A DNA stretch of 46,734 nucleotides from Agrococcus sp. (lineage in GTDB: Bacteria > Actinomycetota > Actinomycetes > Actinomycetales > Microbacteriaceae), in assembly GCA_031179215.1 (NCBI GenBank), contig JAPSIA010000008.1, positions 1-46,734 of the forward strand. The letters run 5' to 3'. A program made the position numbers and the translations under genes. The first letter of the stretch is position 1; each line of letters opens with the position of its first letter. Of the stretch, positions 40,727-46,460 are shown piece after piece. Under the pieces are notes generated by a model. That model worked only from the letters and a program-made list of their open reading frames with translations, was not told the origin of the DNA and searched no databases.

Positions 40727-41332
40727 GTGACCACTCGCGACGAGATCCTGGGCGCGGCGCTCGAGCGCTTCGCCCGGTTCGGCTACCTCGGCACCTCGAT
40801 CCAGCAGATCGCCGACGACGTCGGCACCTCGAAGTCGTCGGTGCTCTACCACTTCGACTCGAAGGAAGCGCTGCTCGAGGCGGCCATGGCGCCCGCGATG
40901 GATGCGCTCACGGAGCTCATCGGCGCCCTGCCGTCGGCCCACGACGACAAGCTCGCGGCGGCGCCCGGCCTCGTCGTGCGGTTCGTCGACACGCTCATGG
41001 CGCACAGCGCCGCGGTGTCGATCTTCGTCACCCAGCGCGGTGCGCTGCAGGACGTGCCCGCGATCGTGCGCGGCAACGAGGTCGTCGACGCCATCGCGTC
41101 GACCCTCGTGCTCGAGGCGCCCACGACGCGCTCGCTCACCCGCCTGTCGATCGGGCTCGCGGGTGTCGCGTTCATCCTCGCCGACACGACCGAGCCGCCC
41201 CACGAGCATCCCTCGCCCGGTGAGATGCGCGAGATCTTCATCGACACGCTGCTCGAGCTGTGCATGCCCGACGGCGGGGAGCGCGCTCGCTGCGCCATCG
41301 CCGCGGCCGGCGCGCACGGGAAGGACGACTGA
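40727..41332 (+). CDS. TetR/AcrR family transcriptional regulator
   Basis: [54 protein letters not shown]. Confidence 0.92.
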
Positions 41333-44286
41333 TGGCCACCTGGCTCTCCCGCGTCGGCGCGGCATCCATGCGCCGCGCCTGGCTCGTGATCGTCGCGTGG
41401 ATCGTGGCGCTCGCGGGCGTGCTCGGCGGCGCGCTCGCGCTCGGCCCCGACATGCAGGAGTCGTTCGAGATCCCCGGCACCGAGTCGCAGCAGGCGCTCG
41501 ACCGGCTCAGCAGCGTCTTCCCGCAAGTGGCGGGCAGCGCCGTGCAGGTCGTCTACCAGGCGCCCGAGGGTGACTCGGTCGAGCAGCACCGCGCCGCGAT
41601 CGACGCGCAGGTCGACGCGATCGCCGAGATCGACGACGTCGCGACGGCGCTCGGGCCGTGGGACGAGTACGCGGCTGACCAGATCTCCGGCGACGGGCGC
41701 TTCGCCTTCGCGCAGGTGCAGTTCGAGCCGCAGGGCGCCGGCGTGACGCCCGCGGGCCTCGACGAGCTCGTGGCGACGGCGGATGCGGCACGGGCGAGCG
41801 GACTGGCGGTCGAGTTCAGCGGCCAGGCCTTCCAGGCCACGAGCGTGCCGATCTCCTGGGTCGAGGGGCTCGGCGTGCTCTTCGCGGGCGTCGTGCTGTT
41901 CGTCACGTTCTGGTCGCTGCTCGCGGCGGGCCTGCCGCTCATCACGGCGCTCGTGGGGGTCGGCATCACGATGGGCGGCGTGCTCGGCGCCTCCGCGCTC
42001 GTGACGGTCTCGAACTCCGCGCCCCTCATGGCGCTCATGATCGGGCTCGCCGTCGGCATCGACTACGCGCTCTTCATCCTCTCGAAGCACCGCTCGCAGC
42101 TCGCGCGCGGCATGGGCATCGTCGAGTCGGGCTCGCTCGCGGTCGGCACGGCGGGGACGGCCGTGCTCTTCGCGGGCCTCACCGTCATCGTGGCGCTCGC
42201 CGGCCTGCTCATCGTCGGCATCCCGTTCCTGTCGGTCATGGGCATCGGTGCGGCCGTCTCGGTCGCGATCGCCGTCGCGGGCGCGGCGACGCTGCTGCCG
42301 GCGATCATGGCGCTGCTGGGGGAGCGGCTGCGGCCGAAGCCCGGCAGCCGCGCCGCGCAGCTCGCCGAGCGCGACGTCGACGAGCGGCCCACGCTCGGCA
42401 TGCGGTGGGTGACGGGCGTCGCGAAGCGCCCCTGGGTCGCGATCATCGGCGTGCTCGCCGTCGTCGGCGTCGCATCCGTGCCCGCCGCGAGCCTCGAGCT
42501 CGCGCTGCCCGACAACGGCCGCGAGGCGCAGGGCACGACCCAGCGGCAGGCCTACGACATGCTGCAGGAGGGCTTCGGCGAGGGCGCCACCGGCCCGCTC
42601 GTCGTCATGGCCGACATCACGCAGGTGACCGACATCATGCGCGTGCTCGATGCGCTCTCGGACGACCTCGCCGCGATCGAGGGCGTCGAGCGCATCGGCA
42701 CCGCCTTCCCCGACGAGACGGCCGACACCGCGATCATCCAGGTGATCGCCGAGACCGCGCCGACCGACCACGCCACCGCCGAGCTCGTCGAGCGCATCCG
42801 CGACGCCGCGCCCGCGCTCGAGGAGGCCCACAGCACCCCCATCGCCGTCACGGGCGCGACCGCGGTGCAGATCGACGTCTCGCAGCGCCTCGCCGACGCG
42901 CTGCTGCCGTTCGGCGCCGTCGTCGTGTCGCTCGCGATCGTGCTGCTCATGCTCGTGTTCCGCTCGATCCTCGTGCCCGTCACCGCAGCGCTCGGCTTCC
43001 TCGGCTCGGTGCTCGCCGCCTTCGGCACCGTCGTCGCGGTCATGCAATGGGGCTGGGGCATCGAGCTCCTGCACGCCGAGCCCGGCCCCATCCTCTCGTT
43101 CATGCCCGTGCTGCTCATGGCGGTGCTGTTCGGCCTCGCGATGGACTACCAGATGTTCCTCGTCTCGGGCATGCGCGAGGCGTACGCCCACGGTCGCGCC
43201 GACGACCCCGATCGCGCCGTGAGCGCCGTGCGGCTCGGCTTCGCGACCAACGCCCGCGTCGTCACCGCGGCCGCGCTCATCATGTTCTTCGTCTTCTTCG
43301 CGTTCGTGCCCGAGGGCATGGCGATGATCAAGGCCATCGCGCTCGGGCTCGCCGTCGGCGTCGCCGTCGACGCGTTCCTCGTGCGCATGACGCTCATCCC
43401 GGCGCTCATGGTGCTCATGGGCGAGCGCGCGTGGTGGCTGCCGCGCTGGCTCGACCGCGCGATGCCCGACATGGACGTCGAGGGCGACAGCCTCGGCCGG
43501 CACCGCGCCGCGCTGGCGTGGGCGGCGGATGCCGGCGGTCACCTCGCGCTCGAGCGGCTCCGCCCCGAGCTCGGCCACGACGCCCCCGGCAGCGCCTTGT
43601 GGACGATCACGGCGCCGCGAGGAGCGGTCGTGCGCCTCGACGCGCCCTTCGCCGAGCGCCAGCGGCTCGCGCACGCGCTGCTGGGCGACATCGGCGCCCG
43701 GGGCAAGGCGCACGTCGGCGGCGCGGCGCTGCCCGGCGACGTCGCGCGGCTGCGCGAGCGCATCGCGCTCGTCGACCTCGACCTGCCGGGCCACGGCGGC
43801 GCCGCCGAGTCGGCGCACGACGCGGCGCGCGCGGCGCTCGCGCTCCGCTCGCCCTTCGCGCTCGGCCCGGCGCTCGACCGCCGCGCGAGCGCGCTCGTCG
43901 AGCGGGCGGGCGCAGCCGCCGGCGCGCGCATCGACGCGGCGGCGCCGCTCTCGCGCCTCGCGCCGCTCGAGCGCGCCGCCGTGCTGCTGACCATCGCGGC
44001 GCTGCGCTCGCCGAGCGTCGTCTGGATCGACGCCGCGCGGGGCGCGCCCACGGGGGCCGCTGCGCTCGCCGCGCGCCTGCTCGGCGACGACGTGACGATC
44101 GTCACGAGCGAGGCCGCGCCCGAGGCGCACGAGCGGACCTCGCTCGAGCTCGCCCCGGCCGATGCAGCGGTCGAGGACCGCGACGCCCGCGCGGCACGGG
44201 GCGCTGCTGCCGGCGCCGCGCCCGAGACACCGACCGACAGCGACGCCCCGACGGGCGAGCTCGCGACCACGGGAGCAGACCGATGA
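41332..44286 (+). CDS. MMPL/RND family transporter with extra C-terminal soluble domain
   Basis: ATG overlaps the TetR stop; two RND halves (...MIGLAVGIDYALFILSKHR...; ...VLFGLAMDYQMFLVSGMREAY...), then about 260 aa of non-MMPL C-terminus from about 43500. Confidence 0.92.
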   Translation: MATWLSRVGAASMRRAWLVIVAWIVALAGVLGGALALGPDMQESFEIPGTESQQALDRLSSVFPQVAGSAVQVVYQAPEGDSVEQHRAAIDAQVDAIAEIDDVATALGPWDEYAADQISGDGRFAFAQVQFEPQGAGVTPAGLDELVATADAARASGLAVEFSGQAFQATSVPISWVEGLGVLFAGVVLFVTFWSLLAAGLPLITALVGVGITMGGVLGASALVTVSNSAPLMALMIGLAVGIDYALFILSKHRSQLARGMGIVESGSLAVGTAGTAVLFAGLTVIVALAGLLIVGIPFLSVMGIGAAVSVAIAVAGAATLLPAIMALLGERLRPKPGSRAAQLAERDVDERPTLGMRWVTGVAKRPWVAIIGVLAVVGVASVPAASLELALPDNGREAQGTTQRQAYDMLQEGFGEGATGPLVVMADITQVTDIMRVLDALSDDLAAIEGVERIGTAFPDETADTAIIQVIAETAPTDHATAELVERIRDAAPALEEAHSTPIAVTGATAVQIDVSQRLADALLPFGAVVVSLAIVLLMLVFRSILVPVTAALGFLGSVLAAFGTVVAVMQWGWGIELLHAEPGPILSFMPVLLMAVLFGLAMDYQMFLVSGMREAYAHGRADDPDRAVSAVRLGFATNARVVTAAALIMFFVFFAFVPEGMAMIKAIALGLAVGVAVDAFLVRMTLIPALMVLMGERAWWLPRWLDRAMPDMDVEGDSLGRHRAALAWAADAGGHLALERLRPELGHDAPGSALWTITAPRGAVVRLDAPFAERQRLAHALLGDIGARGKAHVGGAALPGDVARLRERIALVDLDLPGHGGAAESAHDAARAALALRSPFALGPALDRRASALVERAGAAAGARIDAAAPLSRLAPLERAAVLLTIAALRSPSVVWIDAARGAPTGAAALAARLLGDDVTIVTSEAAPEAHERTSLELAPADAAVEDRDARAARGAAAGAAPETPTDSDAPTGELATTGADR

Positions 44287-46460
44287 CCAGCACCCTGCAG
44301 AAGGCCGTCGCCCTCACCGCGGCCGCCGCGACGCCGTTCGCGGTCGCCGCCCTCGCCGCGTGGTCGCTCGGCCCCGCGGCCGACCTCGACCGCGACGTGC
44401 CCGCCGCGGTCGTGAACCTCGACGAGGTGCGCACGACCACGGCCGACGACGGCACCGAGTCGACGATGTTCGCCGGCCGGCAGGTCGTCACCGACCTCGT
44501 CGCCGACGAGCACGACGGGTTCGACTTCCGCATCCTGAACGAGGAGGACGCCGCGACGGCGCTCGCGGCGGGGGAGGTGCACGCGATCGTCACGATCCCC
44601 GCCGACTTCTCGCAGCGCGTGCTGAGCCTGCAGGGCGACGACCCGCAGCAAGCGGGCATCGACATCGTCGCCGACGCGACCTCGAGCGGCCTCGCGACCC
44701 AGCTCGCGACCGAGACGGGCGAGTCGATCATGGCGTCGTTCGGTGACCTCGTCACGAGCGGCTTCATCTCCGGCATCTACGGCGGCATGGGGCAGATGGC
44801 AGACCAGCTCGGCGCCGCGGCCGACGGGGCGGATGCGCTCGGCGCCGGCGGCGCGGAGCTCGCGACCGGTCTCGGCGAGCTCGCCGGCGGCATCGACCAG
44901 CTCGCCGACGGTGCCGGGCAGTCCCAGGACGGCGCGGCCCAGCTCGCCGACGGCGGGCGGCAGCTCGCGAGCGGCCTCAGCGCGGCGCACGCCGGCATCG
45001 GGCAGCTCGCCGGCGGCAGCGCGACGCTCAGCGACGGCATCGGCCAGTACACGGGCGGCGTCGATCAGCTGGCGGCCGGGGCGACCTCGCTGCGCGACGG
45101 CGTCGACACCTACACCGCGGGTGCCGAGCAGCTCGCCGCGGGCGTGCAGCAGGCGTCCTCGCGGCTCAGCGGCGGCATCGACGGCGCCACGGCCGGCGTC
45201 GGCCGCCTCGAAGCCGCGATCGACGACTCCAGCACAGGCGCCGCGCAGCTGCTCGCGCTGCTGGAGGCCGACGCCGACACCGACCCGCAAGCGCTCGCTG
45301 CCGCGCGGCAGCTCGCCGGCGGGCTCGGTCAGCTCGCCCAGCAGGACGTCAGCGGGCAGCTCGCGGCCGGCCTCGGCGAGGCGCAGGTCGGCTTCGCGGC
45401 GCTCGGCCGTGGCGCGGGCGAGCTCGCGGCGGGCGGGCCGGCGCTGCGCGACGGCGCCGCGCAGCTCGCGGCGGGCGTGGCGCAGGCCTCGGCGGGATCG
45501 CCGGCGCTCCGCGACGGCGCCGCGCAGCTCGCGAGCGGGCTCGCGCAGCTCGACGACGGGTTCGGGGCATCCGTCACGGGCGCCGAGCAGCTCGCGGACG
45601 GCTCGGGCGAGCTCGCGACCGGGCTCGGCGAGCTCGAGTCCGGCGCCGTCCAGCTCGCGGCCGGCGCGCGCTCGGCGCAGACGGGCGCCGCACAGCTCGG
45701 CGACGGCGGCGAGGAGCTCGCCGACGGGTTCGGCGAGGCGATCGCGGCGATGCCGCAGCTGAGCGACGACGAGCTCGAGCAGCTCTCCGAGGTCGCGACC
45801 AACCCGGTCGGCTTCGACCTCGCCGAGCAGCACGCCGCACCGAGCGGCGAGGCGCGCATCGCCACGATCGCCGTGCCGATCGGCCTGTGGCTCGGGGCGC
45901 TCGCGCTCGTGCTCGTGCTGCTGCGCGCGGGGCGCCGGGCGCTCGCCTCTGCGGAGTCGAGCGGCCGCGTGCTCGCGGCGCTCCTCATCCGCTCGGCCTG
46001 GGTCGTCGCCCTGCAGGCGGTGCTCGCGACCGTCGTCGTGCACGCGATCGGCGGCGTGGCGTGGGCGGCGGCCCCCGCGACCCTCGGCCTCGCGCTGCTG
46101 TTCGCCGCGGTCGCGACGCTCGTGCACATCGCGCTCGTCGGCTGGTGGGGCGTCGTCGGCGCCGTCGTCTCGCTCGTGCTGCTCGCCCTGCAGGCGGTCG
46201 CGGCCGGCGGGCTCGTGCCGCGCGCCGTGCTCGGCGACGGCTTCGCCGCGATCGCCCCCGCGCTGCCGATGACCCACGCCGTCGACGGCCTGCAGGCGCT
46301 CGCCGCGGGCACGGATGGCGCGGGAGCGGCTGCCGCGATGCTCGTGGTCTTCGCGGCCTTCGCGCTGCTCGCCGCGGCGCTCGCGGTGCGGTCGGCCAGG
46401 CGGCGCCAGACGGGCGAGCGCATCCGGGCGCTCGACGCGCTCGCGCCCGCCGCCGCCTGA
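44283..46460 (+). CDS. YhgE/Pip family membrane protein
   Basis: N-terminal TM, ...PAAVVNLDEV..., long GAAQLADG-like repeat region, C-terminal multi-TM domain; overlaps the MMPL stop (ATGA). Confidence 0.9.
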   Translation: MTSTLQKAVALTAAAATPFAVAALAAWSLGPAADLDRDVPAAVVNLDEVRTTTADDGTESTMFAGRQVVTDLVADEHDGFDFRILNEEDAATALAAGEVHAIVTIPADFSQRVLSLQGDDPQQAGIDIVADATSSGLATQLATETGESIMASFGDLVTSGFISGIYGGMGQMADQLGAAADGADALGAGGAELATGLGELAGGIDQLADGAGQSQDGAAQLADGGRQLASGLSAAHAGIGQLAGGSATLSDGIGQYTGGVDQLAAGATSLRDGVDTYTAGAEQLAAGVQQASSRLSGGIDGATAGVGRLEAAIDDSSTGAAQLLALLEADADTDPQALAAARQLAGGLGQLAQQDVSGQLAAGLGEAQVGFAALGRGAGELAAGGPALRDGAAQLAAGVAQASAGSPALRDGAAQLASGLAQLDDGFGASVTGAEQLADGSGELATGLGELESGAVQLAAGARSAQTGAAQLGDGGEELADGFGEAIAAMPQLSDDELEQLSEVATNPVGFDLAEQHAAPSGEARIATIAVPIGLWLGALALVLVLLRAGRRALASAESSGRVLAALLIRSAWVVALQAVLATVVVHAIGGVAWAAAPATLGLALLFAAVATLVHIALVGWWGVVGAVVSLVLLALQAVAAGGLVPRAVLGDGFAAIAPALPMTHAVDGLQALAAGTDGAGAAAAMLVVFAAFALLAAALAVRSARRRQTGERIRALDALAPAAA

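Follow-up and report, generated by a model that had tools for sequence, protein, structure and literature searches.

Our study showed that the MMPL-family transporter encoded in the stretch of Agrococcus sp. DNA analysed here (46,734 nucleotides, hereafter the window) continues, after its last RND transmembrane segment, into a degenerate ABC nucleotide-binding domain (NBD), as judged from its predicted fold and from family-level homology that goes well beyond chance. The next gene encodes a YhgE/Pip protein with likeness to ABC-2 membrane proteins. Taking the sequence comparisons and structure predictions together, we interpret the domain as the cognate (pseudo)NBD of YhgE that has become joined to an RND pump, where it would dock YhgE and make transport by the two proteins dependent on the RND half; we give this reading a probability of about 0.62.

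The locus consists of three genes, for a TetR-family regulator, the MMPL/RND transporter and the YhgE/Pip protein, which overlap consecutively on the plus strand of the window. The TGA of the regulator gene and the ATG of the MMPL gene overlap by 1 nt (TGATG; junction sequence GACTGATGGCC), and the ATG of the YhgE gene at 44283 overlaps the MMPL stop codon by 4 nt (ATGA); overlaps of this kind are typical of an operon. The MMPL frame is open from the ATG at 41332 to the TGA at 44286. The genes and the segments of the MMPL protein discussed below are as follows:

40727..41332, plus strand: TetR-family regulator (201 aa) that opens the apparent operon (Pfam TetR_N, E 1.1e-13)
41332..44286, plus strand: MMPL/RND transporter with predicted C-terminal pseudo-NBD, 984 aa (Pfam MMPL, PF03176, E 1.2e-80)
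43462..44160, plus strand: predicted pseudo-ABC NBD, residues 711-943 (AlphaFold2 pLDDT 90.6, pTM 0.87; Foldseek; profile E 1.2e-7 to EcfA)
43462..43530, plus strand: junction segment MPDMDVEGDSLGRHRAALAWAAD, with P, D, E, G, L and W near-invariant in fused proteins (alignments A3 and A5)
43642..43665, plus strand: collapsed P-loop APFAERQR, with one residue fewer than Walker A and Arg at the Lys position (column counts; 3-residue strand-helix loop in the model)
43948..44004, plus strand: former signature (LSGGQ) region LSRLAPLERAAVLLTIAAL (HMM alignment to the LSGGQ helix)
44005..44034, plus strand: Walker B-like RSPSVVWIDA, with the Asp kept and the catalytic Glu replaced by Ala (alignment)
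44161..44283, plus strand: low-complexity-looking C-terminal tail of MMPL, about 40 aa, outside the predicted model (read from the translation)
44283..46460, plus strand: YhgE/Pip family protein, 725 aa (NCBIfam pip_yhgE_Cterm, E 4.7e-31, and Pfam ABC2_membrane_3, E 9.7e-9, both above cut-off)

The Pfam MMPL domain covers two stretches of the transporter and is present in both RND halves. Like other MMPL/MmpL members of the RND superfamily, the protein has in both halves the Asp-Tyr motif that forms part of the proton relay in this family (GIDYALF and AMDYQMF, read in the translation), which is consistent with an intact relay. It differs from same-genus MMPL paralogues, which are without the NBD-like tail. 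The downstream protein had been described in the initial annotation as YhgE/Pip and ABC-2-like. Its place in the YhgE/Pip family (TIGR03061/TIGR03062) rests on the C-terminal NCBIfam model (108 bits against a cut-off of 102.2), with the N-terminal model falling below its cut-off (84.5 against 96.15), and the ABC2_membrane_3 match points to a possible ABC-2 membrane domain. The predicted YhgE structure is moderately confident (pLDDT 76.5, pTM 0.51), and its Foldseek matches to ABCG/ABCH membrane domains are weak (E 0.01-1, best about 0.01). A very long extracellular coiled coil made up of LxxG-type repeats is also predicted for YhgE, and the first extracellular domain of the protein has a weak structural match to 3cni, an ABC-2 transporter domain from Thermotoga (TMt 0.52).

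The MMPL protein runs on for some 270 aa past the last RND transmembrane segment, from about residue 711 (window position 43462), close to the 260 or so residues counted in the initial annotation. AlphaFold2 predicts here an ordered ABC NBD fold with a RecA-like core and a helical subdomain, at a pLDDT of 90.6. Comparison of the model with the PDB by Foldseek gave 741 matches at E<=0.001, the best 50 of which are all ABC NBDs (best E 1.2e-8, TMq about 0.6); FtsE, CbiO/EcfA, MetN and MsbA are among the matches listed. As sole query, the window tail matched nothing in Pfam, in NCBIfam or among PDB sequences, and relatives were therefore needed to detect its ABC homology; those used for profiles came from the Microbacteriaceae, the window's own family. 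A profile of 7 family tails searched against PDB sequences with hmmsearch had only ABC proteins among its best 60 matches (best E 3.7e-6), and a profile of 51 tails matched an ECF ATPase (E 1.2e-7) over aligned positions 28-242, nearly the whole domain. Several fused and free-standing homologues exceed the Pfam ABC_tran (PF00005) cut-off, with all three of the Walker A-intact fused domains scanned from outside the order scoring 39.5-54.4 bits against a cut-off of 25, and the best NCBIfam matches of intact homologues include NodI and DrrA, ATPases that serve ABC-2 exporters. The failure of the window tail to match anything by itself could be taken to mean that its ABC resemblance is accidental and that it has some other fold. 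The chance of this is negligible, because the profiles, the predicted fold and the intermediate homologues are concordant, and we consider the idea refuted by the profile E-value, the Foldseek matches and the ABC_tran scores of the fused relatives. The likeness to an ABC NBD first noticed in the initial annotation is thus upheld, with profile E-values down to 1e-7.

The three motif strings on which that likeness had been based (APFAERQR, the former signature segment and RSPSVVWIDA) are all present in the translation at the positions given above. The accompanying statement that all catalytic residues look lost proved right for the Walker A Gly and Lys, the LSGGQ signature and the catalytic Glu, but wrong for the Walker B Asp (WIDA in the window), which is retained in 47 of 51 relatives. 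In the same 51 family members, where motif positions were assigned by alignment, the middle Gly of the P-loop is deleted and the Walker A Lys is replaced by Arg without exception (51/51 for each), and the 3-residue loop seen at the P-loop position in the predicted model agrees with this assignment. The window domain is without a Walker A GxxGxGK[ST] motif, and none of the 174 distinct fused tails from the order contains GK[ST]. The place of LSGGQ is taken by L-x-x-L-E-R-A in the family (LAPLERA in the window), and LSGGQ was not found in the fused or free-standing forms compared. Alignments and model together show a destroyed ATP site in the window domain and in every relative from the order that we examined, and we infer that canonical binding or hydrolysis of ATP is no longer possible for the window domain. 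A shortened fused domain of about 200 aa occurs in Microbacterium and several other families (L218-L241, L249-L271 and L353-L377); here the helical/signature subdomain is deleted, and the P-loop strand-helix and the Walker B-like strand (VVxDGLD) stay.

The initial annotation had named two outcomes that would refute its proposal, a non-NBD or disordered structure and an extension absent from orthologues, and neither came about: the predicted fold is that of an NBD, and MMPL orthologues with the NBD-like extension were found in the family, in the order at large and in some other orders. MMPL-YhgE loci of the window's type occur in genera such as Clavibacter, Leifsonia, Agromyces and Microbacterium. 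A class-level search also retrieved INTERMEDIATE forms, that is, Walker A-intact MMPL-NBD fusions, in nine genomes from three families outside the order; their Walker A variants are GPSGSGKT, GSDGAGKT, GPPGTGKT and GPPHSGKT, and YhgE is next in each. Another fusion (L253 in genome G034) has the motif GPHRSGRT, a single Lys-to-Arg step from intact. Since fused relatives exist both with an intact and with a destroyed Walker A, fusion is compatible with either state of the ATP site, and so, at the level of sequence, there are intermediates between the two among the MMPL-NBD fusions. The aligned fused proteins all share a junction motif, L-P-x-x-D-x-E-G-E...W (in A5 its P, D, E, G, E and W are invariant; P2, D5, E7, G8 and W20 are so in both A3 and A5), which favours one fusion event for all MMPL-NBD proteins. 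In a tree of 70 domains, canonical ABC NBDs, represented by five rows only, were split from the YhgE-linked NBDs with support of 100/98; the same tree gave no resolution on whether the fused proteins form one clade.

Within the window's genus (14 sequences, Nei-Gojobori), the median dN/dS is 0.33 for the tail compared to 0.35 for the preceding 330 MMPL residues, values that show the tail to be under purifying selection like the pump, and not drifting. The tail matched nothing in 8 of 24 genomes of this genus. We do not attribute this to the genus having lost the tail in places: the only MMPL proteins matched by the junction profile in these eight genomes are tail-less, and since one genome (G128) has both types of MMPL, it is the locus that is absent from the eight, not a tail that has been lost. 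Two other candidates were discarded, a tail-like match in L025 (G064), which is an unrelated protein, and a free-standing match in G140 (L283/L393), which is an ordinary ABC ATPase with LSGGQ.

The link between the domain and YhgE is close. YhgE lies in the fetched stretch of 208 of the 212 fused loci, counted as loci that are not independent, some genomes appearing twice; three of the other four end at a contig end (L040, L210 and L217), and in the fourth (L256) no YhgE was detected within 1.5 kb. No YhgE was found in the fetched flanks of nine tail-less MMPL paralogues of the window's genus. Most of 20 sampled YhgE genes of the Microbacteriaceae have either a free-standing NBD-like gene, often as degenerate as the window's domain, or a fused MMPL directly upstream; the clear exception has a TetR gene there (L333), and one locus is truncated (L339). 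Large-genome families have a pair consisting of an NBD-like gene (GPSGSGRT) and YhgE, with no MMPL within about 6 kb. The initial annotation had envisaged that an ancestral ABC ATPase gene located between MMPL and YhgE became fused to MMPL. Descent from an ABC ATPase is shown by the Walker A-intact fusions above the ABC_tran cut-off and by the free NBDs before YhgE; as to the original gene order, none of the loci examined had MMPL, NBD and YhgE as three successive separate genes, and what we found instead were NBD-YhgE pairs. From these sequences, the system appears to have begun as a pair of NBD and YhgE, with MMPL becoming attached to it. Because the intact homologues resemble NodI and DrrA, YhgE matches ABC2_membrane_3 and the two genes are paired, we regard the NBD family as most probably the partner of YhgE and the tail in the window as this partner tethered to MMPL.

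A second, more eroded free-standing NBD-like family stands directly before other YhgE paralogues in the Microbacteriaceae (L334, L336, L340-L344, L346-L349 and L352). Its pattern is ETExxPTLxxLIAxGRM...HGGD, for which no named family was found, and it has the appearance of a further lineage of dead ABC ATPases. In one genome, two tandem pairs of NBD-like and YhgE genes lie side by side (L323, 6896-14072).

In our model, the cognate NBD of the ABC-2-like YhgE would have become fused with an RND pump at an early stage of actinobacterial evolution, and the pseudo-NBD would now serve for docking on the cytoplasmic side, keeping YhgE attached to the proton-driven MMPL pump. It would dock on YhgE in the manner of an NBD, passing on no ATP-driven motion, and the MMPL half would be the energised part, which may only recruit YhgE or may drive it. 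This docking or coupling role is suggested by genomic linkage and selection. Counting against it are the loss from Microbacterium-type relatives of the helical/signature subdomain, the part of an NBD that normally contacts the membrane domain; the moderate YhgE model and its weak match to ABC-2 membrane domains; and the need of an ABC-2 transporter for two NBDs. It is also possible, if doubtful, that the ATPase of YhgE was disarmed and handed to the RND pump, with proton motive force replacing ATP in what would be a hybrid transporter built from two superfamilies, and that the different lineages stand at different stages of this process (intact Walker A, Lys to Arg, collapsed). In Saccharopolyspora hirsuta with cholesterol, the adjacent YhgE and MMPL genes are both up-regulated (F1721_04135, 3.82-fold, and F1721_04140, 3.33-fold; PMC9782250, Table 2). 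Provided that this MMPL is of the tail-bearing type, the co-induction lends indirect support to the model, and the induction by cholesterol hints at a hydrophobic or lipid-like substrate or at an envelope-stress response.

The pseudo-NBD might instead regulate or stabilise MMPL itself, as a cytoplasmic sensor or oligomerisation domain, with YhgE nearby through operon history and no complex between them. The tail is after all covalently part of MMPL and under selection similar to that on the pump, and other MMPL proteins, such as MmpL3, have cytoplasmic C-terminal tails unrelated to NBDs. We nevertheless think this unlikely, since tail and YhgE almost always occur together, YhgE is absent from the fetched flanks of the tail-less paralogues in the genus, and the same NBD family is found free-standing directly before YhgE without MMPL. 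We judge it similarly unlikely that nucleotide is still used by the domain, which might for instance pair as the dead half of a heterodimer with a real NBD encoded elsewhere in the genome, with transport driven by ATP: its P-loop is a 3-residue turn in the predicted model, fused and free forms have no signature motif, and the window holds no second NBD beside MMPL and YhgE. What speaks for continued nucleotide use is the Walker A kept in fused relatives outside the order, the conserved Walker B Asp, the invariant Arg at the Lys position and the well-known precedent of asymmetric ABC transporters, which have degenerate ATP sites and a conserved but catalytically dead NBD.

The erosion of every motif and the shrinking of the domain in Microbacterium and several other lineages could also be explained if it were a functionless vestige, kept only by its fusion to a useful pump. 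This seems very improbable for a domain whose dN/dS is about one third, the same as the pump's, whose fold is predicted with high confidence, whose alternative motif is fixed in 51 of 51 relatives and which persists across the order and in other orders.

The window domain has the same predicted fold as the ABC_tran NBDs of ABC-2 exporters (NodI, DrrA), but it differs from them in having no P-loop Lys, LSGGQ or catalytic Glu and in being fused to an RND pump, not to an ABC membrane domain. It resembles the dead half of asymmetric ABC transporters with one degenerate ATP site in being a conserved and, by prediction, catalytically dead NBD; there, however, the dead site pairs with a live one, whereas the window locus encodes no live NBD, and its energy source is probably the RND pump. 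In the open-access literature searched we found no account of an MMPL protein bearing an NBD-like domain, nor of a system made up of MMPL and YhgE, and the tight pairing of YhgE/Pip with a (pseudo)NBD, free or MMPL-fused, was likewise not found there. The components belong to known families; their combination, its wide conservation and the graded loss of the ATP site appear to be undescribed.

If our interpretation is correct, this locus represents a conserved transporter module that unites two superfamilies, RND and ABC, and whose fused relatives show differing degrees of ATP-site loss. YhgE/Pip proteins would gain a likely NBD partner family in actinobacteria, and it becomes a testable question whether a dead NBD can allow an RND pump to drive or gate a membrane domain of the ABC type.
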